This document shows, in pieces, positions 8,416 to 24,849 of a stretch of DNA of 64,000 nt. The stretch is from NCBI RefSeq assembly GCF_038006045.1, contig NZ_JBBOUK010000001.1:2707001-2771000 (forward strand), given 5' to 3'. Positions within the stretch are counted from its first letter, which is position 1, and each line of letters starts with the position of its first letter. A program made the position numbers and the translations under genes. The stretch is from Exiguobacterium sp. FSL W8-0210. Lineage in GTDB: Bacteria > Bacillota > Bacilli > Exiguobacteriales > Exiguobacteriaceae. Below the pieces are notes generated by a model. That model had not been told where the DNA came from. It made no database searches and saw nothing but the letters and a program-made list of their open reading frames with translations.

Positions 8416-9567
8416 ATGCACCGCTCGCTTCAAGCCTTACAATTTTATACCTCTCACTCGGCTGAGGATATTTCTCGGCTGCATGAACGGATCCGTTCAA
8501 GTCTTGCTTCGACGGAATCCCTCACCGATACGATGATTCGTATCACGGGTCAACCACCGCTCATTCCCTACGAAGAAGATACGGTGACTGCGGCGGAATG
8601 GGAAGCATATCTCGGTGGAAAACATCACCCCGTTCTCGCTGATTTTTATGGTACGCTCGTTGCTCGTCCTCTACTAGATGAAGATGGTCCGCTTCCAGAT
8701 GAAGAGGAAGAAGTAATTCCTACACTCTCACGAAGTCATCGGGAACCCGAATCCAAACGTCGTAAAAAAGAGAAGGATATTCCACATGCTGGTGCAAAAA
8801 AATCAGTTCCATGGGGCTGGATTGCACTATTGATTCTTTGTTTCTTGCTTGGTGCCGGTGGAACATACGTCTACTCGACATACTTCGCTCATTCGGCAGA
8901 TACGACACCTAAAGCAACAGTCGAAAAACCGGTCACCGTCGAGAAAACAAAAGAACAAAAACCTAAAGCAACAGAAACTGCTTCTCCTGTCGATGATGTA
9001 CTGTATGTCAAAACGCGTTCGAGCAATATCTATCAAGAAGAATCGATGACAACGTTACTCTACGAAGCTGACTTTGGCGACGGATACCGGATTGTCGAGA
9101 AGAAAGACGGTATCACAGAAGTAGAACTATCCGATGACTTAACAGGATTCATTAAAACATCTGATACAACGAAACGTTTGGAAGGTGAACCACTTGCTGA
9201 CGAAACACTCTTAACTTGGGTGAACGATCAACTCGATACAAGCTTCGTCACAGGTACACTCATTGACCTTATCGGTAAAACAAGTACAGAGTTGAATAGT
9301 CTTTATGGACAAGCTGATCGGACATTCGAAGATGAATTACATGATTATGTATTTTATGGTGATCATTTCTTTGTTTTAAAAGATGACCGCGTCATTGCAA
9401 TTGATTGGACGAACACGGATATCACGAACGCACAACTCGCTTCGCTTGCTCCGCTTCAACTCGAAACGGAAACAACGGGACTCATCACGAGTAACTCGTA
9501 TCGACTGCAACGCTTTGAAAAAGAAGGTAAGGTTAGCCGCATTCGCCTAGCTGAACAATCGTTTTAA
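8416..9567 (+). CDS. Single-pass membrane protein of unknown function
   Basis: 383 residues, ribosome site AGGAGG eight bases before the ATG. Not recognised as a known family. An approximately 130-residue N-terminal cytoplasmic part ends in an acidic stretch and a Lys/Arg-rich segment (SKRRKKEKD). A single membrane helix follows at about 136-160 (WGWIALLILCFLLG), then an outside domain of about 220 residues that begins with a Lys/Thr/Glu linker. The topology places the basic side inside. It is transcribed away from the polysaccharide kinase operon and converges on an LCP ligase, so an envelope role is likely but unproven. It ends at a strong bidirectional terminator. Confidence 0.8.
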   Translation: MHRSLQALQFYTSHSAEDISRLHERIRSSLASTESLTDTMIRITGQPPLIPYEEDTVTAAEWEAYLGGKHHPVLADFYGTLVARPLLDEDGPLPDEEEEVIPTLSRSHREPESKRRKKEKDIPHAGAKKSVPWGWIALLILCFLLGAGGTYVYSTYFAHSADTTPKATVEKPVTVEKTKEQKPKATETASPVDDVLYVKTRSSNIYQEESMTTLLYEADFGDGYRIVEKKDGITEVELSDDLTGFIKTSDTTKRLEGEPLADETLLTWVNDQLDTSFVTGTLIDLIGKTSTELNSLYGQADRTFEDELHDYVFYGDHFFVLKDDRVIAIDWTNTDITNAQLASLAPLQLETETTGLITSNSYRLQRFEKEGKVSRIRLAEQSF

Positions 9568-9570
9568 ACG

Positions 9571-9604
9571 AAAAGCACCAAATCCTCGTGGATTCGGTGC
9601 TTTT
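9571..9604. terminator. Bidirectional terminator between convergent genes
   Basis: A stem of about 15 bp with one mismatch (AAAAGCACCAAATCC at 9571-9585 with 9590-9604) around TCGT, with A and T runs on both sides. It serves both the membrane protein gene and the LCP gene. Confidence 0.88.
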
Positions 9605-9606
9605 TA

Positions 9607-10533
9607 TCATTCCATATCAAGTGAATACCGCAATGCTGTCTGTGTTTCTTTCAGTGAATCATCTGTCGGATGCCAGTAGTAAATGCCGTCACCCTCTTTT
9701 CCACCTGTTCCTTCAAGCTTTAAGTTCTTTTGGTTACGGAAAGCGTCCATATAATCAAAGGCTAGCGTCCGCATCGGTTTGAACGAAACGTTCGTTTGAG
9801 CGTTCTTCCCGACGACGTCCATGATCGCATTGAAGTTACTAATCGACACATCTGAAGATAATTTACCTACTACTTGCTCGATGACTTGACGTTGACGCAT
9901 TTGTCGACCGAAGTCACCACGTGGATCTTCGTAACGCATCCGCGTGTATTTAAGAGCATCTGCTCCTGTTAAATTGATTTTCCCAACAGAAAAATGTGTA
10001 CCAGCACTCGTAAAGTCTAAATCATTATAAACCGTTACACCACCGACTGCATCAACCAAGGACGTGAACCCTTCCATGTTGATTTCTGCATAGTAGTTAA
10101 TTGGGATATTAAGAAACTTTTCGACTGTCTTGATTGCCATCTCCGGTCCACCAAATGAATAGGCATGGTTGATTTTATCATTTGTTCCTTTTCCGACGAT
10201 ATCAACCTTCGTGTCCCGGGGAATACTGATCAATCGACTTTCATTTCGTGTCGGGTTCAATGTCATGACCATGATTGAGTCACTACGCCCGCGCTCGCCT
10301 GGACGTTGGTCGACACCAAGTAACAGAACCGACACCGGCTTTTGCTCTTCGACGACTTTGTCTCCCGTATTCTTGACGGGTGATTGAATTTTTTTGACCG
10401 TTTGGTCGACTTGATAATATGTATAGCCGATGAATCCACCGACACCGACGACGAGGACAAGCGCAATCAATAGCATGATTTTCAGTGGCGTCCAGCGTTT
10501 TTTCATCTTACGTCTTTTTTTGACTCGTTCCAA
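9607..10533 (-). CDS. LytR-CpsA-Psr (LCP) family cell-wall polymer ligase
   Basis: About 308 residues. LCP enzymes move undecaprenyl-linked teichoic acid or capsule polymers onto peptidoglycan on the outer face of the membrane. There is a basic N-terminus, one membrane helix at about 17-38, then the LCP domain with LLLGVDQRPGERGRSDSIM, SIPRDTKVDI and GRQMRQRQVIEQV, which hold the arginines and aspartates that bind the pyrophosphate lipid. The first codon is probably the TTG at 10533, supported by an upstream GAAGGGA; an ATG nine codons in lacks a good site. A strong promoter lies upstream. Its place beside the cps genes fits attachment of their product. Confidence 0.92.
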   Translation of the reverse strand: MERVKKRRKMKKRWTPLKIMLLIALVLVVGVGGFIGYTYYQVDQTVKKIQSPVKNTGDKVVEEQKPVSVLLLGVDQRPGERGRSDSIMVMTLNPTRNESRLISIPRDTKVDIVGKGTNDKINHAYSFGGPEMAIKTVEKFLNIPINYYAEINMEGFTSLVDAVGGVTVYNDLDFTSAGTHFSVGKINLTGADALKYTRMRYEDPRGDFGRQMRQRQVIEQVVGKLSSDVSISNFNAIMDVVGKNAQTNVSFKPMRTLAFDYMDAFRNQKNLKLEGTGGKEGDGIYYWHPTDDSLKETQTALRYSLDME

Positions 10534-10602
10534 CTGCGTCCATTCCCTTCTGTGTTTTGCTTCTCGTTAATATCGGTTGTGTATGAAAAGACTTACAGTC
10601 CG

Positions 10603-10633
10603 AGTATAACGAAATTTAAGCGTGATTTGTCAA
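10603..10633 (-). promoter_or_regulatory. SigA-type promoter of the LCP gene
   Basis: Minus strand: perfect TTGACA (10628-10633) and TATACT (10603-10608) separated by 19 bp. It lies about 70-100 bp upstream of the LCP start and just beyond the terminator of the tandem-paralogue operon. Confidence 0.6.
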
Positions 10634-10652
10634 AAACGGGAAAAGATGAAAA

Positions 10653-10681
10653 AAAGAGCCTATCGTTCAGATAAGCTCTTT
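10653..10681 (-). terminator. Terminator of the subtilase / GMT-repeat paralogue operon
   Basis: AAAGAGCCTATC (10653-10664) pairs with GATAAGCTCTTT (10670-10681) with one mismatch, followed by Ts on the minus strand. It stands directly after the last of the five paralogues; none was found between them. Confidence 0.85.
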
Positions 10682-10687
10682 CGTTCA

Positions 10688-11374
10688 TTAGAGTGATGTT
10701 TGACTTTCTACCGTGTATGTTTTCTTTTCATAGTCATAGTTCATAATGACGAGTTTACGTTGAGTTGTCGAAGTCGGGAATACGTATGTTTTCGAGAGTG
10801 CTTTAATTCCGAGTCCATAGTCCAGTTCTTGTTTCGATTGAATCGATGTCCAGTCAATCGAATCCACTCCTGTCCACTCACCAAGACCAGTTCCAGATAA
10901 TACTGCATCCAATTGTTTCTCCGTCATACCCGTCTTGATTTTCTTTCCTTTGAGCAATTTCATCTTACTTTCACGCGCACCTGAGTAAGTATCAACACGA
11001 AACAGATCTAACGACTTTCCTGTCAGACGATAAACCGAACTGTTCTTTTTCGTCATGAACTGGAAAACAGACATATTCGTGAAGTTCTTTTCATCAGAGA
11101 ACGTGTATGCCGTTGTTTTTTGACCTTGTGAAACGGTTGTATACTCTGCTTTTTTCTTTAGTACCGTCGAACCACTCTTTTTCGTCAGCTGCTTCTTATA
11201 TTCTTTCCCATAGATGACTTTTGCCGCTTGCTCGATTGTCATCCCCGCTTTTAATGCTGTGTAACGGTCGGTTACTTTTGTTTCGTCTTTTGTCGCTGCA
11301 GAGGCTACTCCTCCGAATAAAGTTGTTCCTGCGATTACTGTTGCTACTGCAACTTTCGTAAATGTCGTTTTCAT
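10688..11374 (-). CDS. Secreted double GMT-repeat (BamE/BLIP-like) protein, paralogue 5 of 5
   Basis: 228 residues with a signal peptide ending ASAAT near residue 28. Two copies of the motif that marks the SmpA/OmlA(BamE)-BLIP-like fold follow: LKAGMTIEQAAKVIYG (about 41-56) and IKTGMTEKQLDAVLSG (about 145-160), each leading into a beta-rich stretch. The first copy continues into YKKQLTKKSGSTVL, conserved in the tandem neighbours. No catalytic residues are apparent. Last gene of a probable six-gene operon headed by a subtilase. Function unknown; the fold family includes protein-protein binders and the beta-lactamase inhibitor BLIP, so a binding role is possible. Confidence 0.85.
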   Translation of the reverse strand: MKTTFTKVAVATVIAGTTLFGGVASAATKDETKVTDRYTALKAGMTIEQAAKVIYGKEYKKQLTKKSGSTVLKKKAEYTTVSQGQKTTAYTFSDEKNFTNMSVFQFMTKKNSSVYRLTGKSLDLFRVDTYSGARESKMKLLKGKKIKTGMTEKQLDAVLSGTGLGEWTGVDSIDWTSIQSKQELDYGLGIKALSKTYVFPTSTTQRKLVIMNYDYEKKTYTVESQTSL

Positions 11375-11389
11375 GTTCCTATCCCCTTT

Positions 11390-12079
11390 TTAGAATGTCT
11401 CGTGATTTTCAATAACGTAGGCTTTCTTTTTCGTGTCATAGCTCAGCTCAACGTAAACGCGTGATTTCGTTGATTTTTGGAAGACATACAATTTTCCTTT
11501 AAACGCTTCAATCTCATATGCTTTGATTTCTTTCGCACTGAAGACGATTCGTGCATCTTCCTCAAGCAATCCAGCCCACTCCCCAAGACCAGAACCTGAA
11601 AGCACAGCATCGAGTTGTTTCTCCGTCATTCCCGTCTTGATTTTAGCGCCCGCGTTTAATTTCCGTGTACTCTCGCGGTATTCAGAATATGTATTCCGTC
11701 CCATTTCGACTTGTTTCGAGATAAGACGATAGACGGAATCGTTCTTTTTCGTCATAAAACCGAGCGACATCAAAGTCGGAGGAATCTTTGCCTTCCGATC
11801 ATAGATTTCGTAATAAATTTCTTTACGCTTATCTTCAACGTCCTTAAACTCTTCTTTCGTCTTTAGTACTTGTGAACCGCTTTTCGTTGTTAATTGCTTT
11901 TTGTAGTCTTTGCCGTATAAGACTTTTGCGACTTGCTCCATCGTCATACCCGCTTTAAGTGCTGTGTATTGATTTGTCGCTGTTGTCTCGACTTTCGTCG
12001 CCGCCGATGCCGTTCCACTAAAGAGTGTTGATCCCGCGATGATTGTCGCCACTGTGATTTTCATGAAGGTCGTGTTCAT
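11390..12079 (-). CDS. Secreted double GMT-repeat (BamE/BLIP-like) protein, paralogue 4 of 5
   Basis: 229 residues. Very close to the next gene downstream: the same signal peptide pattern (VATIIAGSTLFSG then ASAA), LKAGMTMEQVAKVLYG, a YKKQLTTKSGSQVL block, and IKTGMTEKQLDAVLSGSGLG in the second half. The gap to paralogue 5 is only 15 bp. The central segment between the two repeats is the part that differs most from its relatives. Exported; no wall anchor or membrane helix beyond the signal peptide, so it is released or loosely held. The similarity of 4 and 5 suggests the most recent duplication. Confidence 0.85.
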   Translation of the reverse strand: MNTTFMKITVATIIAGSTLFSGTASAATKVETTATNQYTALKAGMTMEQVAKVLYGKDYKKQLTTKSGSQVLKTKEEFKDVEDKRKEIYYEIYDRKAKIPPTLMSLGFMTKKNDSVYRLISKQVEMGRNTYSEYRESTRKLNAGAKIKTGMTEKQLDAVLSGSGLGEWAGLLEEDARIVFSAKEIKAYEIEAFKGKLYVFQKSTKSRVYVELSYDTKKKAYVIENHETF

Positions 12080-12094
12080 ACTTTACTCTCCTTT

Positions 12095-12796
12095 TTAATA
12101 CTGACTATGATCTTCGACACGATACGCTTTCTTTTCCGTGTCATAGATAAAAAAGATGTATTGCCATTTGTTTGTTGCCGTCGGAAAAACGTATGATTTC
12201 GTATGAATGATCGTCGCTTTCCCTGCTTTGACTTCTTTTTTTCGAAGAACGGATGTCGTATCGACGTGACCGAGTGTTCCGAATGCCCCGAGCCCTTTCC
12301 CTGTCAATACTCGATCGACTTGTTGTTCCGTCATTCCGTTTTTGATTTTCGCACCTTTGATTAGTTTGCGATCACTCGTCCGGAATCCGGCTGCTGTGTC
12401 ACGCTTGAACTCCATTTGTTTCATCGTCAGCCGATACTTCGTTCCGCCCGTCTCCGTCATGAACATCAGGACACCGATTGCTGATGGGAATTCCACTTTT
12501 CGATTCACGAGATCATAAATTAGGACGTTCCGATCCCATTCCTCCATCTCGATTTCTGTGTTCAATCGTAAGACTTGTGAACCGTTTTTCATCTTCAGTT
12601 GTTTTTTATACGTCTTGCCATAGAGGATTTTGGCGACTTGCTCCACTGTCATCCCCGGTTTTAAAGCACGATATTGTTTTGTCGCGATCGTCTCAGCTTT
12701 CGTTGCAGCACCCGCCGTTACTGGATTGAGGCAAACTATTGCGATCAGTACCATGAGAAGCCGTCGTTTGACGTTCCACTTCTGCATCCATTTCAC
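12095..12796 (-). CDS. Secreted double GMT-repeat (BamE/BLIP-like) protein, paralogue 3 of 5
   Basis: 233 residues with an N-terminal signal peptide (LLMVLIAIVCLNPVTAGAA). The first repeat reads LKPGMTVEQVAKILYG, followed by YKKQLKMKNGSQVL; the second is IKNGMTEQQVDRVLTGKGLG. The second-half Glu-Lys of relatives is Glu-Gln here. Separated from paralogue 4 by 15 bp. It belongs to the same array and the same function is expected. The N-terminus starts MKWMQKWNVKRR, which is more basic than in the neighbours. Confidence 0.84.
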   Translation of the reverse strand: MKWMQKWNVKRRLLMVLIAIVCLNPVTAGAATKAETIATKQYRALKPGMTVEQVAKILYGKTYKKQLKMKNGSQVLRLNTEIEMEEWDRNVLIYDLVNRKVEFPSAIGVLMFMTETGGTKYRLTMKQMEFKRDTAAGFRTSDRKLIKGAKIKNGMTEQQVDRVLTGKGLGAFGTLGHVDTTSVLRKKEVKAGKATIIHTKSYVFPTATNKWQYIFFIYDTEKKAYRVEDHSQY

Positions 12797-12817
12797 TCAC
12801 TTTCTGTTGCACGTGCT

Positions 12818-13516
12818 TTAGTTCTTCGCCTTAATCGTCCGCATGTCACTGATTTCGTAGGTTTTCGCTTGTTCGTTATACGTCAACTCGACATGTTTCC
12901 ATTTGTCTATCGTCGATTTAAAGACATATTCTTTGATCCGAGACACTTCAGCAAACCCACGTTTTTGTTCGTCCAGCGTATAAGCAGACGCTGTATCCAT
13001 ATGACCGAGCATCGTCCAGTTGCCAAGATCCTTCCCCGTCAATTTCGCATCGAGCTCTTTTTCCGTCATCCCGTTCTGAAGCGCGGCACCTTTGACGAGC
13101 GATCGTGTACTTTCGCGATACCCTGTCTTCGTCTTCCGTTCGATGAACAAGCCTTTCGTCACTAAGCGATACTTCGTACTCTTCTGTTTCGTCATGAATT
13201 GTAAGACCAGTTCAGTCGGGGGATGTGTTGTTGTCGAATCGGAGAGGACATGGATCAATTGCTTATGTCCTTCTTCATCCCCTTCGAAGTTGATTGGAAG
13301 TTTAAGAACAGTCGATCCGTTTCTTTTCTTCAGGTGTTTCTGATACGACTTGCCATACAGGACTTGCGCGACTTGTTCCATCGTCATTCCATTTTTCAAG
13401 CCCTTGTACTGTGTCGTCGCAAGCGTTTCTGCTTTTGTTGCTGCGGATACTGTTCCTGGAACAAACAGACCAAGCAACAGTACTAAACAGAGTGACACTA
13501 TCATAATGCGTTTCAT
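12818..13516 (-). CDS. Secreted double GMT-repeat (BamE/BLIP-like) protein, paralogue 2 of 5
   Basis: 232 residues, signal peptide IMIVSLCLVLLLGLFVPG cleaved about at SAA. LKNGMTMEQVAQVLYG plus YQKHLKKRNGSTVL form repeat one, LQNGMTEKELDAKLTGKDLG repeat two. The C-terminus KTYEISDMRTIKAKN is longer and more basic than in 3-5. Gap of 21 bp to the next gene and 44 bp to the previous. Nothing in it suggests an enzyme. Confidence 0.84.
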   Translation of the reverse strand: MKRIMIVSLCLVLLLGLFVPGTVSAATKAETLATTQYKGLKNGMTMEQVAQVLYGKSYQKHLKKRNGSTVLKLPINFEGDEEGHKQLIHVLSDSTTTHPPTELVLQFMTKQKSTKYRLVTKGLFIERKTKTGYRESTRSLVKGAALQNGMTEKELDAKLTGKDLGNWTMLGHMDTASAYTLDEQKRGFAEVSRIKEYVFKSTIDKWKHVELTYNEQAKTYEISDMRTIKAKN

Positions 13517-13560
13517 ACCTGTTTCCTACTCCCCTCGATGACTCCATGAATCATCATTAT

Positions 13561-14244
13561 TCATTTTTCATACTTCAATGAAATCCCGATTTCTGTATCC
13601 ACCTCATATCGCTTTTTCTGCGTGTTATAGGACAAGGTGACGACCTGCATCTTTTTCGAATGCGACCGGTGGAATTGATAGATTTTATAGCGTCCATTTT
13701 TCATCGGACTTTTTTTAATGACGGACGAAACGTTCCAACTCAAATACATCGACACCTGTCCGAGCTTTTTGCCGGACACCAGTTGGTCGAGTTGTTTCTC
13801 CGTCATCCCGTGGCGTAATGACGCCGGCTTCATGAGTGTCCGGCTATTTTCATACAAGCCATTTTCCGTATCGGCTTGGTAGTACAGCGCTTTTTGTGTC
13901 AGATAATATGTCTTCTGGTGCTGTTTCGTACTAAATTCAAGAAGCGTTGTCGTTGGAAGGTCTTTGGAGGGGCGATCCAGTACGTATCCGAGGGACCGAT
14001 ACCCTTGTTCGTTATCGGTCGTTCCCGGTTTTTTCGTAAAGACGACGCTACCATTTTGTTTCTTGATGTATTTCCGGTACCCCTTTCCATATATTGTATT
14101 CGCGACTTCCGTTAGCGTCATACCGAACTTAAGTGCTTTGTACTCTTGTTTGATCTGCAGTGCTTCCTTTGACGCTGCTTGTCCTTCGAGTGTCCCACTG
14201 AAACAAAGGACACCAATCAGGAAAACACATAGAATACGTTTCAT
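13561..14244 (-). CDS. Secreted double GMT-repeat (BamE/BLIP-like) protein, paralogue 1 of 5, most divergent
   Basis: 227 residues with a signal peptide (ILCVFLIGVLCFSGTLEGQAA). Repeats are LKFGMTLTEVANTIYG with YRKYIKKQNGSVVF, and LRHGMTEKQLDQLVSGKKLG. It is the copy closest to the subtilase gene (17 bp gap) and the most diverged of the five, both between the repeats and at the C-terminus (TEIGISLKYEK). That order, protease then divergent copy then similar copies, fits an array that grew outward by duplication at its distal end. Confidence 0.84.
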   Translation of the reverse strand: MKRILCVFLIGVLCFSGTLEGQAASKEALQIKQEYKALKFGMTLTEVANTIYGKGYRKYIKKQNGSVVFTKKPGTTDNEQGYRSLGYVLDRPSKDLPTTTLLEFSTKQHQKTYYLTQKALYYQADTENGLYENSRTLMKPASLRHGMTEKQLDQLVSGKKLGQVSMYLSWNVSSVIKKSPMKNGRYKIYQFHRSHSKKMQVVTLSYNTQKKRYEVDTEIGISLKYEK

Positions 14245-14261
14245 CGTTCGACCTACTTTCC

Positions 14262-15821
14262 TTATTTCACGAGCTGAACGGCACGATCAGCATTCAAGCG
14301 ACCGTATCCGTACGTCGTGTCGCGACCTTTTTTGCCGAGGTCCTTCGCTGACTTCCGAAGAATCGATTCGACGTCCGTCACTTTGATACTTGGCTTTAAG
14401 CTATAGAGGACACTCGCGACACCTGCGACATGCGGTGTTGCCATCGATGTGCCACTCCAAAAGATCGATTCGCCGTCTTGCAAATAACTCGCGATATCTT
14501 GTCCCGGTGCGACGAGATCCAGTCCTTCGCCATAGTTCGAAAACGACGCTCGTTTATCGAATCGGTTCGTCGCCCCGACCGAGAACGCATATTTCGAACG
14601 TGCCGGATAGGACAGTTTCGATGCGCCTTCATTGCCGGTTGCTGCTGCGACGAAGATTCCTTTTTTGCGCGCTTCTGCTAAAGCATCTTCAATCGCTAAG
14701 GAGACACCGCCACCACCAAGACTCAAGTTGATGACTTTTGCCTTTTGTTTCACAGCGAACAGAATGCCTTTCGCGATATTCGAGTTCGAAGCGTAGTTAT
14801 TGCGCGAAATGACCTTAATCGGAATGATGCTCGCCCGATCATTGATCCCCGTCATCCCGTAACCATTGTTCGATGCTGCGGCAATGACACCCGCGACGTG
14901 TGTACCGTGTCCATGATCGTCATAAGCGAGCTGTCGCTTATGAACGAAATCGTATCCGAGATCCATCCGGACGCGTCCGGCGAAATCCGCATAGGTCGGA
15001 TTAATCCCCGTATCGACGACTGCTACACGAACGGTCGAACGTGACTTGTTGGCAATCCGTTTGACCATCGCGTGATAACCGATATCGGCTCCTTTAACGC
15101 CTCCGCGTTGTCCGGTGTTTTTTAATGCCCACTGGACCGATTGGAACGGATCGGTACTGAGTAACTTCATCGGTTGATCGAGTTCGACGTACCGGACGCT
15201 CTTCGTTTTTTCCAGTTGGCGTTTGGCTGCCATCGCTTGGATGAAGCTGTTGTAGGAAAACTTCTCGAGCCGTAACGTACTATCAATCGTTTCGTGATCA
15301 GTAGCCCGTGACGTCTGTGACAACGTACTCGCTTTCGTCGCCCCGTTCAGACGAACGACGAGACTCGTTGCCTGTCCGGTTGTCGTTGATTTTGTCGCGT
15401 ATTCGCGAATGGGTTCAAGGCGTTCGAGTTTATAGGGAATCGTAAAAGCTTTATTCTTCGCCCCCGTCACTTCGATGTATTGTCGCCCACTCCATGTCAG
15501 TGGGAAAAAGAGTGTTTGTTTACTATTCGCATACCGCGCATATGGATCTTTTTGTTTGTATTCCGTCTGCGACGTATAAACGGTCGCTTTTTTGGAAGCG
15601 TCAAAGGCGAACTTCAAGTGTGTTCCACCTGACAGATACGTCTTCGTATCAAAATAGAACAAGGCTTTCCCGCTCGCATCGAACGTTCCTTTGATGTAGC
15701 CTTTTTTCGTTTTCGCTTCGATGGCTGGGACTTTTTTCGCCGTTGTCGCAGCCTCTGTCGTATCCCATGTATATGTACCAAATGCACTCACGAGGAGAGC
15801 ACTGACGATGACCTGTTTCAT
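14262..15821 (-). CDS. Secreted subtilisin-like serine protease (S8)
   Basis: 519 residues. Signal peptide ends at TTEAAT near 25. The catalytic triad is complete: Asp270 in VAVVDTGIN, His305 in HGHGTHVAG, Ser459 in SGTSMATPHVAG, with oxyanion Asn397 in ATGNEG. Between signal and catalytic domain are about 225 residues: a beta domain with FYFDTKTYLSGGTH and LFFPLTWSGRQYIEV, then a short inhibitor-like propeptide segment just before WALKNTGQ. Start has AAGGAG at normal spacing and a TATAAT upstream. It probably heads the operon containing the five GMT-repeat proteins. Confidence 0.93.
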   Translation of the reverse strand: MKQVIVSALLVSAFGTYTWDTTEAATTAKKVPAIEAKTKKGYIKGTFDASGKALFYFDTKTYLSGGTHLKFAFDASKKATVYTSQTEYKQKDPYARYANSKQTLFFPLTWSGRQYIEVTGAKNKAFTIPYKLERLEPIREYATKSTTTGQATSLVVRLNGATKASTLSQTSRATDHETIDSTLRLEKFSYNSFIQAMAAKRQLEKTKSVRYVELDQPMKLLSTDPFQSVQWALKNTGQRGGVKGADIGYHAMVKRIANKSRSTVRVAVVDTGINPTYADFAGRVRMDLGYDFVHKRQLAYDDHGHGTHVAGVIAAASNNGYGMTGINDRASIIPIKVISRNNYASNSNIAKGILFAVKQKAKVINLSLGGGGVSLAIEDALAEARKKGIFVAAATGNEGASKLSYPARSKYAFSVGATNRFDKRASFSNYGEGLDLVAPGQDIASYLQDGESIFWSGTSMATPHVAGVASVLYSLKPSIKVTDVESILRKSAKDLGKKGRDTTYGYGRLNADRAVQLVK

Positions 15822-15854
15822 TTGATTTCACTCCTTATCGTTGTATCCTTTTTC

Positions 15855-15860
15855 ATTATA
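15855..15860 (-). promoter_or_regulatory. -10 element upstream of the subtilase/GMT-repeat operon
   Basis: A perfect TATAAT on the minus strand about 35 bp upstream of the protease ATG, in a 100-bp gap after the terminator of the other protease gene. No clear -35 is seen. Confidence 0.4.
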
Positions 15861-15921
15861 ATGGAAAAAATTGATTTTCCTAGTTCTTTTTACCTCTATC
15901 AATCAATGAATTGACTGAAAA

Positions 15922-15949
15922 AAGAAGCCCTGTTCGCACAGGACTTCTT
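15922..15949 (-). terminator. Terminator of the upstream subtilase gene
   Basis: AAGAAGCCCTGT (15922-15933) pairs with ACAGGACTTCTT (15938-15949) around TCGC with one mismatch, then Ts on the minus strand. Confidence 0.87.
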
Positions 15950-15956
15950 GACTGCA

Positions 15957-17531
15957 TTAAGGGATTAGTTTGACGGCGTTATCGGTATTCAAACGACCGG
16001 CACCATAACTCGTATCATAGCCTTTTTTACCGAGATCCTTCGCTGATTTCTTGAGGATACTTTCCACACTACTTGCCTTCAAGGACGGCTTCAGACTGAT
16101 CATAAGACTCGCGACACCCGCGACGTGTGGCGTCGCCATCGAAGTACCACTTCCATATAACAGCTCCCCATCTGCAAGGTAGCTTGGGATCGAGACACCT
16201 GGAGCGACGAGGTCCAGTCCCGTTCCGTAATTCGAGAACGAGGCTTTCGTATCTTTTCGTCCGGTTGCACCGACCGACAAGACATATTTCGAACGGGCCG
16301 GATATGCGACCGTTCCGCGTCCTTCGTTCCCGGAAGCAGCGACGATCAGGATGTTCTTCTTGACTGCCGCTGCTAATGCCGACTCGATCGATTTCGAAGA
16401 AGAACTACCGCCGAGACTCATGTTGATGACTCGGGCACCTTGTTTCGTTGCATGCTGGATGCCTTTGACGAGTCCCGACACCGAACCAGCCCCTGACTCA
16501 TCGAGCACCTTGATCGGAATCAACGTCGTCATCGGATTGATGCCGGTCATCCCGTACGTATTATTTCCACCCGCTGCAATAATTCCGGCGATGTGTGAAC
16601 CATGTCCGTTGTCATCCCACGCTGTCTTATCGCCATTGATGAAATCATAGCCGAGATCCATCCGGACTTTACCTGCGAAGTCGGCATACGTCGGATTGAT
16701 GCCGGAGTCGAGAACTGCGACTTTCGTTGCAGACAGCTTCTTGCCTTTGATGCGTTTTTGCATGGCGACGAAGCCGATGTCTGCTCCTTTCAGTCCCTTC
16801 TTTTGTCCCGTGTTCTGCAGCGACCATTGATGTTTTTGATAGGCGTCGACACCGAAGGCTTGAATCGGTGCATCGAACTCCGCGAACGCCACGCTGTTCG
16901 ATCGCTCGAACTTTTTCTTCGCTGCTTCAGCGTCAGCATAGGAATTATAGACGAGTCGTTCGATGCGGAGCTCAGACGCTAATGATTCGACTTTTGAGGC
17001 CCCGAACGATTGCGCCCGCATTGCACCAGAACGTGTCTGAACAAGTAACGCCGGTTTGACTGCTTTGACGGCAGCCGTCATCGATTCCTCAATCGGTTCA
17101 TAACGCGAGACGTAGGCGGGAACAGAATAACGGTCGCCCGGATAGCCTTCGAGGACTAAGTACTGCCGTCCGCTCCAACTGAGTGGGAAGTAGAGTGTAT
17201 CGTCCGTAACTTGATAGTAGCGGTTGTAGACGCGACCTGCTTCCGCGTCGGCTTTGCTGGCGAACATCGTTCCGTACGTATCGTAGTCGAGTTCGAACTC
17301 AAAGTGCGTCCCTTTTGCGACAAACTCCTTCGCATCAAAATACCATACGGCAAATCCATCCGAGTCGAAACGACCTGTCAAAGCACTCCCAGCTTGTTTC
17401 GAAAACGCTGGAACTTCCTTTGCCTTAATTAGTGTTGCCGGACGAATCATTTCCTGCTTTTCAAGCGCCTTGACTGGTAGCGTACTACAGATCAAACCAA
17501 GCGCTAAGCTCCCTGCTATCCATGTGCGCAT
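15957..17531 (-). CDS. Secreted subtilisin-like serine protease (S8), second copy
   Basis: About 524 residues. A close paralogue of the neighbouring protease with the same layout: signal peptide, beta domain with WYFDAKEFVAKGTHFEFE and LYFPLSWSGRQYLVL, propeptide region, then the S8 domain with VLDSGINPTYADF, HGSHIAG and GTSMATPHVAG. The His motif has Ser-His-Ile instead of the usual Thr-His-Val, a conservative change. Two ATGs stand in tandem; the second (17529-17531) has GGAGG seven bases upstream and is preferred. It is transcribed alone, bounded by terminators on both sides. Confidence 0.92.
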   Translation of the reverse strand: MRTWIAGSLALGLICSTLPVKALEKQEMIRPATLIKAKEVPAFSKQAGSALTGRFDSDGFAVWYFDAKEFVAKGTHFEFELDYDTYGTMFASKADAEAGRVYNRYYQVTDDTLYFPLSWSGRQYLVLEGYPGDRYSVPAYVSRYEPIEESMTAAVKAVKPALLVQTRSGAMRAQSFGASKVESLASELRIERLVYNSYADAEAAKKKFERSNSVAFAEFDAPIQAFGVDAYQKHQWSLQNTGQKKGLKGADIGFVAMQKRIKGKKLSATKVAVLDSGINPTYADFAGKVRMDLGYDFINGDKTAWDDNGHGSHIAGIIAAGGNNTYGMTGINPMTTLIPIKVLDESGAGSVSGLVKGIQHATKQGARVINMSLGGSSSSKSIESALAAAVKKNILIVAASGNEGRGTVAYPARSKYVLSVGATGRKDTKASFSNYGTGLDLVAPGVSIPSYLADGELLYGSGTSMATPHVAGVASLMISLKPSLKASSVESILKKSAKDLGKKGYDTSYGAGRLNTDNAVKLIP

Positions 17532-17626
17532 CATCGTTCCTCCCTCTAGGTCTTTCTTACCAATACCCGGATTAGATGGAATTATGTGGAATATATTGAA
17601 ACATTGACGCAAATCATAAAAAAACA

Positions 17627-17647
17627 CCACTCTCGTGTTGAGAGTGG
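17627..17647 (-). terminator. Terminator of the glucanotransferase gene
   Basis: Perfect eight-base stem CCACTCTC (17627-17634) with GAGAGTGG (17640-17647), five-base loop, T run on the minus strand. Confidence 0.85.
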
Positions 17648-17656
17648 CGCTTGATG

Positions 17657-20335
17657 TTACTTGACTGTAACTGTGAATGTTTTAACGACTTTGTAGTTAC
17701 CCGCTGTCGTGTACGTGACACGAATCGTCGTTTTGCCTGCTTTAATGCCTCTGACGTTACCGCGTGACGAGACTTGTGCGACTTTTTTGTTTGCTGACGT
17801 ATACTGAACGGATTTGATTTTATCCGTTGCTGAAGTATAGGCAATCCGTGTCGTCTGGTTCTTCTTCAGTGTTGCTTTTGTTGCTTTCAGCGTGACGCTG
17901 TTTGCTTTTGTTTCGATTGGTAAAACTGTTTTCAAGACAAAACCGTCTTTTAACGTAACCGTTGCTTCGACTGTCGTCTTACCTGTTGCTTTACCTGTCA
18001 GGCGACCTTTTGAATCAACTGTCGCTTTTTTCGTATCCAGGACACGGTAGCGTGTTGACGCAACTGCTGCTGTCGTGTTCGTAACTGTCGTTTTCAAGTC
18101 GAGTGCTTTTCCTTGATAGACCGCACCGGCTTTGATCGTTGCGACTGGTGCTTTTGTTGTTTGTGGGACGAAGACGCCGACGTAACCGTTGACTTCAGCT
18201 GTTTTGATCCCTTTGACTGGAACCGTCAAGATACCGTTCTTATCTGTGACGAGTTTCGTTTTCGTAACGCCACTAGCATCGACGAAGACTTGATTCGCGT
18301 GTGTTTTACCCATGTTGACTTGAACTGTCGTATCCAGCGCTGCATTTTTCCCGATGACTGTCGCGACACCTGTGTTGCGGTCTTTTCCGAAACGGACGCT
18401 TGAGATCAAGTCTTTGCCCGCTTCTTTTGACGTGTTCGATGTGTGGTACGCAACGTGCTGTTTACCGTATGCATACTGTTTACGGACTTTTAGGAGATTC
18501 GTGATTTCGTCATAGTACGGTGTCGTTTTCGACATGTACGATGCATCCGTCTGATAGAGATCACCGTAGTAGACCGTTGGGACCGTATTTTTGTTCGAAA
18601 GAAGGAACGCGTATTGCGCGACGACGTTTTCCGTCGAGTATTTCTTCGTCGGACTTGCGAGTTCTTTGTTGTAGATCGCAAGTGCCTTCGCTTCATCTTC
18701 TTTATTGTAGAGCTTCTCGAACGATTTCGGCTCGCCGTCTTTTCCGTACTGCGTATTCGTTTTGATGCCGTAAGTATCAAGCATGATTTGGTTGATGCGG
18801 TTTTTCTCTTGGTCATGGTTGTTGACGAATGACCAGTTCGCTTGAACGTTCGTCGCGCCGTCACCTTCACGGTTAACGACTGAGACTTTCGCTAAGTCAC
18901 GGAGTGCACGTTTGTTTGATGGCGTAAGTGCTGAACGGAGCGTGAAGTAAAGCTCTCCGTCCATGACGAGTTGTTCGTTATTGTTTGCTTTCATGTAAGC
19001 ATTCTGTTCTGTTTTATAGCTCTCGATGTAGCTGAGGTAATCTTTTTTACCGAAGTGCGCTTTTGACACTTCTGCTTCTGCATTCAAGATTCTCGTATCA
19101 TAGTGTGATGCTGCATCGATCCGGAAACCGTCGAACTTATATGTTTCAAGCATCCACTTCATCCAGTTCTTTTGTTCCTTGATGACTTCTGGGTTCGAGT
19201 TCGCCAGGTCGACACCAACCAAGAACTCATCGTTGTTCGTCATTGTTTTGTTGTATGCCTGCGTTGGGAAACCAGTCTCATCGACGAAGAGGAACTGATC
19301 TTCGATGTCGATGCCTGAGTTATCGTTTTGGTATGAACGTTCTTCTGATCCATAACCGTACGCAGCTTGTGTCTTCATGTATTCTTCCGTCAACGAAGCA
19401 ATCTTGCTGTTTTCCGTTGAAGTAAGCAAAGCTTCTTTTGTTTCGAAGCCATTTTGTTTCATGTACTCGAGGTATCCTTCATCCTTCGCATATTGCGAAA
19501 GCATCGGCTTCCAGTTCTCTGGTGAGACTTCATACCAACCATCTGCTGCGAGGTACGTATCGACGACATTCAAGTTCTGTGTCTTCGCTGCGTCAAGCAA
19601 CCATTCTGGTAAGTAGTTCTTCGCATCATCTTTACCGAAGTAACGGTATGGTTTACCGTCTTTGTCCGTCATGACGCGGCCCATCCCCTGCCCTTGCAGT
19701 GATGTCCCATTGATGAACGATTTGTTCCACTCTTTGAGGTAACCGTATTTTGCTTGTCCCATACCGCCACCTTTTGTGTAAGCGAGGTAAGGCGTTGCGA
19801 GGGTCTTCGTTTTTTCTCCACCTGTGTATGGGTTTGTGAACGGCTCACCTGAGCTTGTCGCACGACGAACGAAAACAGCTTCACGTTTGTTGAGACCGAG
19901 CATTTGGTTCGGAACGAGATCCATCTGGACTTTGATGTTGTCGTCATGCAACATGTCGACCATCATCTCGAGTTGTGTGGCTTTACCGTATTTCGTCGCA
20001 ACCGCTCCACCTGGTCCTTGTGGGAATTCACCGAGGTCATAACGGTCAGCGATTGCATAGCCTTCCATGTAACGTGCCATATCGAATGAACGATACGCAG
20101 GTGGCAACCATACATCTGTTACACCCCACGAGTTGAGCAAATCACCTTTTTTAGCAAGCGTCCGGTACATATTGCTTTCGTACGGTTGATACAGGCTGAA
20201 GCTTTGGAAAATAACGCGATTGTCGAGTTTTTCACTTGGTGCGAAAGCCTTTGCGCTTTCTGGTGCATACGTTAGTCCGCTTGTCGCGACCAATGCCGCA
20301 AGCAAACCTGTCGAGACTTTTTTCGTCTTGTTCAT
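17657..20335 (-). CDS. gtfC: GH70 4,6-alpha-glucanotransferase, non-permuted GtfC type
   Basis: 892 residues, secreted (signal peptide ends ESAKA about 30). The N-terminal catalytic part is GH70-like (LYQPYESNMYRTLAKKGD, LPPAYRSFDMARYMEGYAI) rather than ordinary amylase. Motif order is I-II-III-IV as in GH13: DLVPNQ (139-144), FRIDAASH with nucleophile Asp407, VMDGEL with acid/base Glu461, NNHDQE with Asp508. Classical glucansucrases are circularly permuted, so this is the GtfC subfamily described from Exiguobacterium sibiricum, which converts starch or maltodextrin to alpha-1,6-linked products. Two Big_2 Ig-like domains form the C-terminus. Single-gene transcript. Confidence 0.9.
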   Translation of the reverse strand: MNKTKKVSTGLLAALVATSGLTYAPESAKAFAPSEKLDNRVIFQSFSLYQPYESNMYRTLAKKGDLLNSWGVTDVWLPPAYRSFDMARYMEGYAIADRYDLGEFPQGPGGAVATKYGKATQLEMMVDMLHDDNIKVQMDLVPNQMLGLNKREAVFVRRATSSGEPFTNPYTGGEKTKTLATPYLAYTKGGGMGQAKYGYLKEWNKSFINGTSLQGQGMGRVMTDKDGKPYRYFGKDDAKNYLPEWLLDAAKTQNLNVVDTYLAADGWYEVSPENWKPMLSQYAKDEGYLEYMKQNGFETKEALLTSTENSKIASLTEEYMKTQAAYGYGSEERSYQNDNSGIDIEDQFLFVDETGFPTQAYNKTMTNNDEFLVGVDLANSNPEVIKEQKNWMKWMLETYKFDGFRIDAASHYDTRILNAEAEVSKAHFGKKDYLSYIESYKTEQNAYMKANNNEQLVMDGELYFTLRSALTPSNKRALRDLAKVSVVNREGDGATNVQANWSFVNNHDQEKNRINQIMLDTYGIKTNTQYGKDGEPKSFEKLYNKEDEAKALAIYNKELASPTKKYSTENVVAQYAFLLSNKNTVPTVYYGDLYQTDASYMSKTTPYYDEITNLLKVRKQYAYGKQHVAYHTSNTSKEAGKDLISSVRFGKDRNTGVATVIGKNAALDTTVQVNMGKTHANQVFVDASGVTKTKLVTDKNGILTVPVKGIKTAEVNGYVGVFVPQTTKAPVATIKAGAVYQGKALDLKTTVTNTTAAVASTRYRVLDTKKATVDSKGRLTGKATGKTTVEATVTLKDGFVLKTVLPIETKANSVTLKATKATLKKNQTTRIAYTSATDKIKSVQYTSANKKVAQVSSRGNVRGIKAGKTTIRVTYTTAGNYKVVKTFTVTVK

Positions 20336-20475
20336 GAGTCTAATCTCCCTTTGAGTAATATATATTTCTGATTATTTATACCTAAAATTCCAAATAACAT
20401 AACATAATTTAACATCTTTTTTCAAAGTAAAGACAGTTGTATTTTTTAAAAATAGGTAAATGAATTTATCTAGAT

Positions 20476-20487
20476 GCAATCGATTGC
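20476..20487. promoter_or_regulatory. Perfect palindrome GCAATCGATTGC, candidate LacI/MalR-family operator
   Basis: A 12-bp perfect palindrome centred on CG, the form used by LacI-family regulators such as MalR and CcpA. It lies about 140 bp upstream of the glucanotransferase and next to the terminator of the surface protein gene. It fails the cre consensus at three positions, so a sugar-specific LacI member is more likely than CcpA. No promoter position is certain here. Confidence 0.4.
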
Positions 20488-20506
20488 GCTATTTTGTCAC
20501 AAAAAA

Positions 20507-20530
20507 CTCTCCCTACCGAAGTAGGAAGAG
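20507..20530 (-). terminator. Terminator of the S-layer-like gene
   Basis: CTCTCCCTAC (20507-20516) pairs with GTAGGAAGAG (20521-20530) with one mismatch around CGAA, then a run of Ts on the minus strand. Confidence 0.85.
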
Positions 20531-20541
20531 ATTTTCATTGC

Positions 20542-23500
20542 TTAGTTCAGTCCGAGAAGAACTGCTTTCTCGTAACCACCAGTCAAGACAGAGTTGTCAT
20601 ACGACTGAAGCTCTTTGTTGACCGTGATGACGTTCGACAATGTTTTAAGTGTTCCAGCTGGAACTTTGATCTTAACGATGTCGAGACCGTTCGTGATATC
20701 ATCATCCGAATCAGCAAGCGAGATGCTTGTGCCGACTGGGAGATTTTTTCCGTTCAACGTGTACTGTGCAGTGTTCGTTGCATCGTACATACCAGTGTAT
20801 TGTACACCTTCTGTGAACTTGATACGGATGACATCTTTTTCATCTTTTGCGTTAGCTGTGACTTTAGCGATTTCGAATGGCGAAGCCACTGGTGTGACTG
20901 GCGTTTTCGAAACTTTAAAGTCGTGTGTTGCTGTAGCGACCGTGTTACCGACATCGTCAGAAAGTGACTTGACGACGACTTTCCACTCTTCTCCATAACC
21001 GTCTTTGTCGACGAGGTACTGGAGGCTATCGTTCGCTTTAACGCGGAAGTTCGAATCCGAACTGTTCGTGTAACCGACGACTGATCCGTCGATCGTAACG
21101 GTTTTACCATTTTTATCTTTACCGATGAACTCGACAGTCGTTTCAGGAAGATCAACCAATCCATCTTTACCTTTTAACGGCGTATCGTACTGGTCGAGAC
21201 CTTTCAATTTAACCGGTTCGCTCATCAAGACGTTGAAGTCATTCGAGAGAAGGATACGGTCGATTGCAGTGATTTCCGCACTCTTCAGATCTGGAGAGTT
21301 GAGCGGTGAACCAGCATAGTTGAGTTCAAGTGTCAACGCATCGTTCTTCTCACCGTTCGCTTCTGCTTTGACAGCATCTTTTGCGAGCGAAAGTTTAAAC
21401 TTATCGTTGTAGTAGTTCTCTTTCGTGTTGACCGTATCGTAAATTTCCGTCCAGTCCTTATTGAGTTCGACGAGAACTTCACCTGTTTCATCGTTGTAGT
21501 ATGTCACGTCAACATACTGACTGAAGTCTTCGTACAGCTTCGTGCTTGAGTTATAACGCTCGAGTTTCAACTTCTTCGAAGCAAGCAATGCTTTGACTGC
21601 GTCGAGGTCGAGACCTTTCAGCTGTTTGCTGAACATGATACGGAATTGTTCTGGCGACTCAACAACGACGCCTGCAGTTGGCTTGACTGTATCAGCAGCA
21701 ACTGTGAAGTCGAGGTTTTGTGTTGTTCCGATGTTCGACTCATCCGAAAGGGCTGCGAAGTCCATCGTGTTCCAAATTTGGAGTGAGTGTTTACCAGGCG
21801 TGAAGTAGCCTTTCTTCGGTCCTGGGTAAGCTTCTTCTGCTTTTGCACCCATCATCATCTGCTCATCGTTCAACGTGATGATGACTGTATCACGGCGATC
21901 GACGCCTGTTTTGTTATCAAATCCGAGGTATTCGACTTTGAAGTACTTCTCGCCGTATTGACCATCGATTTTGAACTTCGCGCCCGCGATTGCTTCTGAG
22001 AATTTCACTTCAAGTTGGTTCAGACCGACTGGTTTGACCGAAGTGACTTCCGGCTGACGTGCATCCGTCAACTTGAAGCTTGCTTTTGACTTCACTTCTG
22101 TATCCGTGCTGCTTGTGATTTTCGCAAGCACTTTAACAGTTGCGTTGTCTTGGAGTGGTGTTTCTTTATCAAGGATCAATTCGAATGCTTTTGGATTCGA
22201 AGGAATCGATTTGATACCGATGACGCGTTTCGAACCATCGAATTGCTCGATTTGGATGTTGTCGTTTGCAAGGTATTCGCTCTCATCAACCGTCGGTAAT
22301 TTCTTATCGAGACCGAACGATTTCAAGAGAAGATCACGTGAGACGGCTTTATCGAGGAAGATCGTCACACGATCCGCTTGGTTCGATTCCGCTGCAAGGA
22401 CGTTGATCAATTCAACTGGTGCTGGTGTAACCATGACCGTGCTGAATTTGACTTTCGCTTGTCCATCGATTTTACCGATCAAGTCTTTGTACTCACCGTT
22501 GACTGTCTCGATGATTTGCGCGTCGATTGTTGCTTCGATGTCTGTGTTGCTGAACTCAGACGTCAAGAGAACCGTCGCTTTACCATCTTGGATCGTAACG
22601 CGTTCTTTCGCGAGTGATCCGAATGATGTCGATAATTTCAAGACGATATCGTCTGCTTTCGTATCGACTTCACCTGTCGCTTTGTTTTTCAACTGGAATG
22701 TGACTTCCGTGTTGTCTGATCCGTTTGCAAGGATCGAAGACGCTTTGGGTGTCACTTCAAGCATCCAGATGTTTTCGACGCTTTGCGTCATGAAGCTGAG
22801 TGAACCGAGGTCTTTTGCAACGCCACCGATTAAGATGCCTTTTGCGTCAACTGAGTAGTCCATGCCGTACTCGAGTCCTTCGACTTCAAGAACTGCTGAC
22901 TTCTTGTCTGCGCTAAGTGTCGCTGACTTGACTGTCGCACCTGCGATTTTGAAGTTGTCTGCTGAGACAGAGTCAACGGCACGCGAGAATGAGACTTCGA
23001 CTTTCTCTTTGCCGATTGCTTTTGCTGAAGCGAGAACTGTGTTTGCAATCGTGAAGTCCATCGGAGCTGATTTGACATCGCCGACTTTGACGACGTAGCT
23101 GTGTGTTCCTTCTGGAATGCCACCTTGTGATGCCATGAACTTCCCTTTCGAGAGCGTTCCTTTTGCAACGATTGGAGTTGCTGACATGTCTTTTCCTGGG
23201 TAGATCAAGAGTTCTGCCATTGCGCCGACTGCCGGGTACATGACGTCTGCTTTGACTGAAAGCATCTGATCATCGACGCTTCCCATGACGTTCGAGATGC
23301 TTGCTGCCTTGACTTCGTAGTTGATGTAACCTGTTACGACAGAGTTAGCACCTTTGTACGAGTAAGCCAGTTTATATTTTCCTGCTTTTGAAGTCGATGG
23401 AGTTTTGAGATTGAACTTGCTGATTGGGCGTTTAACGATGATACCTGATTTGTACTGGATGCTGATCGTGCTTGGCAATTGAACTTTTCCGCCAACAGCG

Positions 23501-23886: not shown

Positions 23887-23951
23887 GTTTACTATTCCTC
23901 CTCTTTTCTAACAAATCAAGAGCGCAAATCCCAATTTTAAATCTACAATAT

Positions 23952-23977
23952 AAGTAAAATATAGAAATATTTTACTT
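23952..23977 (-). promoter_or_regulatory. Perfect AT-rich inverted repeat in the S-layer leader
   Basis: AAGTAAAATAT (23952-23962) and ATATTTTACTT (23967-23977) form an 11-bp perfect inverted repeat with loop AGAA, 65-90 bp upstream of the start codon. A TATATT hexamer lies next to it on the coding strand, so it could be an operator overlapping the promoter. If transcription starts upstream it would be a 5' stabilising hairpin instead. Confidence 0.45.
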
Positions 23978-24031
23978 TAAAGCAGTTAAAAAATTCTTTA
24001 GTCGTCTTAGGAGGAGTACGTTCTGTTTCAC

Positions 24032-24241
24032 GTGCGACTTTTCGTCTATCATCAAGACGATCCATGCGTGAGCCATTATGTATCCGATTGGGATGAACTA
24101 AAGAAACTGCCGAAATCGCTCCAAGAAGCCATTTCTGATTGTAGATTCGTGCGTTCCATCGTTTCGTTTTTGAGAATCGGTAGAAACGCTACAGGTCAAA
24201 TATACAAAACTGGGAAGGACGCTACAATAGCTTTTTTGTAA
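24032..24241 (+). CDS. Possible small protein, doubtful
   Basis: 69 codons from a GTG. The AGGAGG at 24009-24014 is too far (17 bases) for this start, but correctly spaced for an in-frame CTG at 24023. The middle (YVSDWDELKKLPKSLQEAI) looks like real protein; the final third does not, so this may be the remnant of a longer gene. No family recognised and no promoter or terminator is evident. Confidence 0.25.
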   Translation: MRLFVYHQDDPCVSHYVSDWDELKKLPKSLQEAISDCRFVRSIVSFLRIGRNATGQIYKTGKDATIAFL

Positions 24242-24386
24242 AAAATAGGTGAATAGTAGTAAGATAAAATATATTTATATGGGCTGTGCATGGAAATTAA
24301 TTTTTGGATTCACCCCTTTAAAGAAAACGCTTACATTTTATTAAGTTTTTGCCTTATTTTCGTTTTATTAAAATAAAGTTTTGATT

Positions 24387-24797: not shown

Positions 24798-24820
24798 GTA
24801 TCTGCTCCTTTTTATCAAAA

Positions 24821-24849
24821 ATAGGTGAGTCCGCGAGGGGCTCACCTAT
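24821..24849 (-). terminator. Terminator after ugd
   Basis: ATAGGTGAG (24821-24829) and CTCACCTAT (24841-24849) form a perfect nine-base stem, followed on the minus strand by TTTTGAT. The T run is short, so read-through into the next small gene is possible. Confidence 0.75.

Follow-up and report, generated by a model that had tools for sequence, protein, structure and literature searches.

A subtilase gene followed by a tandem gene array

In a 64,000-nt stretch of Exiguobacterium DNA (the window; all coordinates are window positions, and G and L numbers label genomes and loci), the gene of an S8 subtilase is directly followed by an array of five genes encoding secreted-looking proteins, which likely share, as judged from one predicted structure, a tandem fold resembling the β-lactamase inhibitory protein BLIP. 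We tentatively propose that these array proteins are cognate secreted inhibitors of the adjoining protease, so that the subtilase and the five downstream genes would make up one secreted protease/cognate-inhibitor operon.

All of these genes lie on the minus strand. The proximal subtilase (14262–15821, 519 amino acids (aa)) is followed in transcription order by p1 (13561–14244, 227 aa), p2 (12818–13516, 232 aa), p3 (12095–12796, 233 aa), p4 (11390–12079, 229 aa) and p5 (10688–11374, 228 aa), the copy nearest to the LCP gene. The gap between the subtilase and p1 is 17 bp, and those that follow are 44, 21, 15 and 15 bp. The p3 frame opens at a GTG codon without a clear ribosome-binding site, and an ATG at 12787 is an equally likely start. 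An intrinsic-terminator-like site with 13 pairs (10682–10652, minus strand) ends the array, and no minus-strand site was found inside it. This arrangement agrees with a first-pass annotation of the window, which had described five adjacent co-oriented genes of 227–233 codons, spaced by 15–44 bp and starting 17 bp after an S8 protease gene, each with a signal peptide and two GMT-type motifs, and with a single terminator closing the array and none between its genes. The layout is also that of a protease–inhibitor operon, with an inhibitor-like gene adjoining the protease gene on the same strand across a 17-bp gap that holds no terminator-like site (the gap was scanned in the window; across 14 genomes gene order alone was compared).

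The first-pass annotation had paired the array with two subtilases, of which the proximal one can be retained as part of a co-directional unit. The distal subtilase (15957–17534, minus strand, 525 aa, ~52% identical to the proximal one), whose best start at 17534 has a ribosome-site-like stretch just upstream, is separated from it by a second terminator-like site (15949–15922, minus strand) and by a –10-like TATAAT element (15855–15860, minus strand), a putative promoter element. All 14 genomes with the proximal subtilase have a –10-like element at a comparable distance ahead of that gene, TATAAT in 6 of them and TATACT in 8. The terminator scan (9500–19000) returned 14 sites against 11.3 expected in shuffled sequences, and single sites are weak evidence. 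The distal gene is missing or split in 3 of the 14 genomes with conserved gene order (absent in G016, broken into two frames in both G004 and G005); the same three genomes retain the proximal gene and the array. Since the terminator-like site and the conserved –10-like element lie between the subtilases, and since the distal gene is dispensed with or broken in these genomes, the likely transcription unit consists of the proximal subtilase and the array, which would be co-transcribed, and the distal subtilase probably belongs to another unit.

A predicted tandem BLIP-like fold

The AlphaFold2 model of p4, built with 24 sequences from the window and the named loci as input, has a mean predicted local distance difference test score (pLDDT) of 89.4 and a predicted template modelling score (pTM) of 0.83; 195 of its 229 residues have a pLDDT of at least 90, and residues 1–24 are the only stretch under 50. 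When 999 of the 1000 top chains from Foldseek were realigned with VIA-align, the first 15 rows were all BLIP, BLIP-I or BLP (Z 8.7–7.4), followed by a row at 6.2, with BamE rows at 5.6 and below. The BLIP-type rows have 142–149 aligned residues, a root-mean-square deviation of 3.7–4.5 and 14–17% identity, and span both repeats. Residues 29 or 33 to 229 of the model superpose on BLIP as two tandem helix–helix–four-strand domains. The BLIP-like fold that had been suggested from the motifs is thus borne out as a predicted model.

Several sequence features are common to the five array proteins. In an alignment of all five, the other four are 33–38% identical to the protease-proximal copy, and every protein has GMT in its first half and GMTE in its second. 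Profile comparison shows these halves to be homologous to each other (hhalign E = 4.3e-6, probability 87%). Each protein begins with a hydrophobic stretch ending near A-A-[ST]-K; read by eye as signal peptides, these stretches make the proteins look secreted, as the first-pass annotation had held. The mature parts (203–208 aa, isoelectric point (pI) 9.4–9.9) contain no cysteine, so the proteins are not lipoproteins. Members of the BLIP family carry a disulfide in each repeat, a trait that the cysteine-free array proteins lack.

Profile searches with the suspected families gave a mixed answer: a weak BLIP/BamE signal is present, and every Pfam cut-off is missed. For BLIP (PF07467) the gathering score is not reached, 5 of 65 array-family members match at E ≤ 0.5 (best E = 0.022), and none of the 19 Exiguobacterium genomes has a match at E 0.001. 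For BamE (PF04355), 15 of the 65 match at E ≤ 0.5 (best 5.2e-5), and p3, the best window protein, falls just short of the gathering score (23.1 bits versus 23.2). DUF3862 (PF12978) had no match in the own genome, in a search that was positive in none of 14 control genomes either, and none in the Pfam scan. In Pfam scans of half-domains, BamE was matched by 3 of 30 first halves and, among 30 second halves, BamE by 1 and BLIP by 1, all weakly. Neither BLIP nor BamE chains came up at E ≤ 10 when the PDB was searched by sequence with whole-family and half-domain profiles; the hits obtained, ribosomal and other chance-looking chains (best ribosomal S8, E = 0.0029), were set aside. The array had no match in PADLOC and two weak matches of unknown function in PHROGs (E = 0.00018 and 0.006). 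As sequence members, then, the array proteins fall outside the BLIP and BamE Pfam families.

Distribution and conservation of gene order

The array family was searched for in a class-wide sample of 398 genomes, comprising 19 Exiguobacterium, 19 sister-genus and 360 other Bacilli genomes, the class-wide search scoring at most seven candidates per genome. A profile of the five array proteins found relatives at E 0.001 in 17 of the 19 Exiguobacterium genomes. A broader profile matched none of the 19 sister-genus genomes, and added weak matches only in G006 (a diverged 216-aa protein) and G008 (a 25-residue open stretch). The class-wide search matched none of the 360 other Bacilli genomes. In L116:7384–9455, the G006 relative has another small secreted-looking gene on either side of it, on the same strand, and the G006 subtilase of this type is ~17 kb away. 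A further G006 match, weaker at 14.9 bits, occurs in L117:13725–14276. In a scan of named genomes, 9 of 10 loci were from Exiguobacterium; the tenth (L044, a Kuenenia record) falls within a protein that by eye is of the efflux type, and was regarded as a false positive. Plasmid and phage collections contained no match to p4, the one array protein queried.

Fourteen of the 19 Exiguobacterium genomes share the gene order of the window, from the subtilase through an array of 1–6 copies to the LCP gene, with extra frames between the array and the LCP gene in G002 and G013. An array copy lies directly downstream of the proximal subtilase, on the same strand, in all 14 genomes that have it. The expectation that the arrangement would recur in other members of the genus was therefore confirmed, and the layout is more than chance. 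Of the 49 array genes at these 14 loci two are split, the last copy in G002 (L046:9489–10174) and the third in G011 (L056, from 11273), which is a sign of gene birth and death. The 520-aa subtilase type itself occurs in 18 of the 19 genomes; in the sister genus, 15 of 19 genomes match it only over about residues 203–511, at 38–42% identity and in longer frames. G008 is missing the entire segment that separates the LCP gene from the 24387–24845 homologue, including the array, both subtilases, an amylase and a surface protein. These genes (window 10534–24386; L115) behave as one gained-or-lost block; in G008 the 24387 homologue lies ~0.5 kb from the LCP gene, and no part of the block is found in that gap.

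Array-family genes also occur away from this locus. G007, G010 and G017 each have one copy elsewhere, 24–36 kb from the single subtilase of this type, adjoining two large surface-type proteins related to the 1114-aa protein described below, with no subtilase beside it. Intact unlinked paralogues are present in 14 of the 19 genomes (15 proteins of 229–267 aa, L065–L079), and G002, G004 and G016 contain a fragmented one. The intact genes sit at two conserved chromosomal positions, shared by 7 and 6 genomes, or at one of two further sites (L070, L073); the G008 fragment is at the second conserved position, and none of the neighbours of the 15 paralogues is similar to the window subtilases.

BLIP-domain proteins were found at E 0.001 in 10 of the 398 Bacilli genomes, three of them over the cut-off. 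The broad array profile matched two of these around their GMT motifs (L125, 22.5 bits, E = 4.8e-7; L127, 14.6 bits, E = 0.00013; E values from a small set of 135 frames), and the genome of such weakly matched proteins is not listed by the class-wide array search. Because the profile reaches some BLIP-domain proteins of other Bacilli at motif level, the term genus-specific would apply to the array family as a whole and not to the domain. These proteins contain either one repeat or two and, unlike the array proteins, do not occur in arrays. No window-like subtilase lies beside any of the ten loci, as far as neighbours are recognised by similarity to window proteins, except for an edge fragment ~7 kb away in L130; in L133 the marked frame is on the strand opposite to the BLIP-domain match.

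The subtilases and the C-terminal residue of the array proteins

Both proteases belong to peptidase family S8, with PF00082 over the cut-off (185.8 bits for the proximal; 193.2 bits for the distal, scored on the longer frame 15957–17630) and intact catalytic Asp, His and Ser motifs, which in the proximal enzyme start at residues 266, 305 and 457. Their matches in PHROGs and PADLOC are to subtilase-type models. The proximal protein comprises a signal peptide (by eye), an N-terminal part, a region that by its position is propeptide-like, and the catalytic domain. In the distal protein a Fervidolysin prodomain scored 16.6 bits, under its cut-off of 21. A QW motif stands at the start of the catalytic domain. 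Nine residues ahead of its Q, a possible P1 residue of propeptide cleavage is Leu in 7 of 7 proximal and Phe in 7 of 7 distal subtilases examined (window and named loci); if cleavage does take place there, it agrees with an S1 pocket that prefers residues of this kind.

The last residue of the array proteins was compared in 50 family members (47 intact at the locus and the three lone copies). Class I, to which the protease-proximal p1 belongs, was defined as a 12-row clade of the protein tree, independently of the tails, and contains the same 12 proteins as a selection based on tails; all 12 end in Lys, though their tails differ. Among the 38 proteins outside class I, 34 end in Leu, Tyr or Phe (in the window, Tyr in p3, Phe in p4 and Leu in p5), again on differing tails (of 25 distinct last-six-residue tails, 22 end in this way). 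The four exceptions end in Asn (two, including p2) or Asp (two). Leu, Tyr or Phe endings occur in 10.4% of 450 other frames of at least 150 aa from the same stretches; the relatedness of the proteins makes a p-value for this pattern meaningless, and a crude set of secreted frames, with 0 of 10 having such an ending, offers too few for a comparison. Within the array, the last residue is kept while its neighbours drift. By analogy with propeptides, whose tails enter the active-site groove of subtilases in an account given in part of PMC6993865, this residue may take a place in the S1 pocket; alternatively, it may have a structural role or be recognised by a PDZ-type protease.

Evolution of the array

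In a maximum-likelihood tree of 65 array-family proteins (subject to a long-branch warning, and rooted for drawing only), copies of the two main species clades fall together within class I and also within other classes, which places the origin of at least some paralogue classes, on this tree, before the species split. The single copies of G016, G018, G007, G010 and G017 group with the LCP-proximal copies, partly with modest support, and this grouping goes against a simple outward growth from the protease. The idea that the array grew outward could thus not be upheld, as some classes predate the species split and the lone copies group with protease-distant ones.

Pairwise ratios of non-synonymous to synonymous substitution rates (dN/dS), all within six closely related genomes, are 0.04–0.29 in 38 orthologous array pairs, 0.02–0.06 in 30 protease pairs and 0.01–0.07 in 15 LCP pairs. 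By this measure, the array classes compared are under purifying selection and maintained, with weaker constraint and faster divergence than the proteases. No positive selection was seen, dN/dS being below 0.3 in all 38 array pairs.

Proposed function and alternatives

We hypothesize that, once exported, the array proteins adopt a tandem BLIP-type fold and bind the proximal subtilase, limiting its activity near the producing cell; they would probably also bind related serine hydrolases at the cell surface. Several diverged paralogues would provide different affinities or targets, and the class-fixed C-terminal residue (Leu, Tyr or Phe; Lys in class I) may occupy the S1 pocket as the end of a propeptide does. 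Cognate inhibition of the proximal subtilase is the reading we prefer, at slightly less than even odds, because of the linkage in 14 of 14 genomes, a predicted fold best known from an enzyme inhibitor, and earlier cases of inhibitor genes next to those of secreted proteases, which passages of PMC3462683 describe as co-transcribed in Staphylococcus, Streptococcus and Bacteroides. The confinement of both the array and the 520-aa subtilase type to one genus and their joint loss in G008 also count for it, as do the promoter-like element in 14 of 14 genomes, the dN/dS pattern, the C-terminal pattern and the putative P1 Leu/Phe. Members of the BLIP superfamily have been proposed to be inhibitors (PMC2954215, in its section 3.3). 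Of the first-pass interpretation, the fold (as a model), secretion, conserved gene order and a co-directional unit with the proximal subtilase are supported, and the pairing with both subtilases and the outward growth are not.

A number of observations weigh against this assignment, the strongest being the copies without a neighbouring subtilase, the envelope context, and the fact that binding and inhibition are themselves what we infer. The lone copies of three genomes and the unlinked paralogues of 14 lie away from subtilases of this type, and G006 has such a subtilase without an adjacent array copy. The C-terminal pattern is broken in the window by p2, and among the 15 unlinked paralogues 11 end in Lys and 1 in Phe. 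The subtilases seem to have a propeptide-like region of their own, and the genomes are related, so that counts are not independent events. As to the fold, Foldseek gave no match to the p4 model at E 0.001 or better. Because best Z scores of 7–8 are common for models without a clear match, the weight of the fold assignment comes from one family filling the top rows, from the full-length cover and from the independent BamE/BLIP sequence signal. In a model of a fused protease–array read-through chain (pLDDT 68.5, pTM 0.53), the subtilase part is poorly folded, and the model speaks neither for docking nor against it.

Ranking second, and in our view unlikely, is a role at the envelope, in which basic secreted BLIP-fold proteins act on wall polymers, a surface protein, or penicillin-binding proteins and D-Ala carboxypeptidases, and are merely co-expressed with the protease. 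The mature pI of 9.4–9.9 suits such a role, as does the company of a large secreted surface-type protein (20542–23886, minus strand, 1114 aa, Big_4), associated with the array by position only. It is full-length in all 14 genomes with the proximal subtilase, has partial or diverged relatives in G006, G007, G010 and G017, where the lone copies of the last three stand beside two of its large relatives with no subtilase, and has no match in G008, which lacks the array. Other BLIP-like domains are reported in envelope maintenance in part of PMC10653890. Potential targets are also at hand, since PF13354 (beta-lactamase-fold serine hydrolases) is over the cut-off in all 19 Exiguobacterium genomes; in the own genome, which the family scan covered, the two matches are Peptidase_S11 D-Ala-D-Ala carboxypeptidases (212.7 and 130.6 bits), and in the other 18 genomes the matching frames are of similar size (411–485 aa). 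An envelope role would leave unexplained why the array directly adjoins the subtilase gene in 14 of 14 genomes and why the C-terminal residue is fixed by class. The same two PF13354 matches, being carboxypeptidases, speak against inhibition of class A β-lactamases, for instance those of competitors, which the predicted BLIP-like fold would otherwise bring to mind; with cysteine-free mature proteins, scores below the BLIP Pfam cut-off and a protease gene next door, it is the least probable of the roles weighed here.

The conserved linkage and the likely single transcription unit with the protease first would equally suit secretion foldases or stabilisers that aid the extracellular maturation of the proximal subtilase. 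This is improbable, because the protease seems to have a propeptide-like region of its own and a single client does not readily account for as many as six diverged copies; moreover, G016 and G018 keep a single copy, and three genomes keep a copy without a neighbouring protease. Very improbable is a role of the array proteins as substrates, decoys or cargo that the subtilase cleaves: the co-expression arrangement and their faster divergence than the protease fit, but the compact tandem fold of the model, with the high pLDDT noted above, does not, and the class-fixed last residue suggests an end that is kept. Cognate inhibition thus remains our preferred reading. A more elaborate and rather doubtful extension of it sees a genus-specific tandem-BLIP repertoire acting like detached propeptides, in which the body of the protein docks and the C-terminal residue fills S1; the array would then encode several specificities, for own and foreign proteases.

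Relation to known systems

The closest structural relatives, Streptomyces BLIP, BLIP-I and BLP (PF07467), are likewise secreted, have tandem BLIP-type repeats and match the model best over both repeats. The array proteins differ from them in having no Pfam hit over the cut-off, 14–17% structural-alignment identity, no cysteines, a longer mature chain (203–208 aa) and an arrayed position beside a subtilase. BamE/SmpA/OmlA (PF04355) share the GMT motif and the helix–helix–four-strand domain; BamE is a single-domain lipoprotein of an outer-membrane complex.

In gene organisation, the locus resembles the staphostatin, Spi and Bacteroides Bfi–Bti operons, in which an inhibitor-like gene closely adjoins a secreted protease gene. 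As far as passages of PMC3462683 describe them, those genes are co-transcribed, as we infer for the array operon, but the enzymes are cysteine proteases (C10, C47), the inhibitors have other folds and some are thought to be cytoplasmic. In Bacteroides thetaiotaomicron, the same passages give three inhibitor genes for four proteases, against an S8 protease and up to six BLIP-fold copies here. A secreted stand-alone inhibitor of a subtilase is known from Plasmodium, where excerpts of PMC6993865 describe SUB1-ProM as having a propeptide fold and demonstrated inhibition, whereas the array proteins have a predicted BLIP-like fold and would inhibit. The intracellular inhibitor IPI of the Bacillus subtilisin Isp1 has another fold and, in what part of PMC3901451 states, reportedly is not near a subtilisin gene.

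Among the matches listed in a search of the open-licence literature, which leaves subscription journals mostly outside its scope, no paper describes such an operon, in line with the first-pass remark that a system of this kind is not known to have been described. Protease–inhibitor operons and BLIP-like inhibitors are known kinds; what is new is that the two are combined, that the partner is an S8 protease and that the genes form a tandem array. If the proposal is true, this would be a BLIP-fold inhibitor of a protease, and it would tie the proposed and mostly untested idea of the BLIP superfamily as inhibitors, as worded in part of PMC2954215, to a defined enzyme–inhibitor set. The array is a natural paralogue series for measuring how a tandem-repeat scaffold changes its target, and could supply inhibitors of subtilisin-type enzymes.

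Neighbouring genes

In the sister genus, N-terminal relatives of the 1114-aa surface protein occur in 6 of 19 genomes, in 5 of the 6 within ~8 kb of a larger subtilase gene. Upstream of the distal subtilase, window 17657–20335 encodes a secreted GH70/alpha-amylase-like protein with two Big_2 stretches according to the Pfam scan, and this gene is not in the block in G003, G011, G014 and G016. A 383-aa protein (8416–9567) is conserved beside the LCP gene in G008 as well as in the 14 syntenic genomes, and its C-terminal stretch resembles, by eye, a BamE-type domain.

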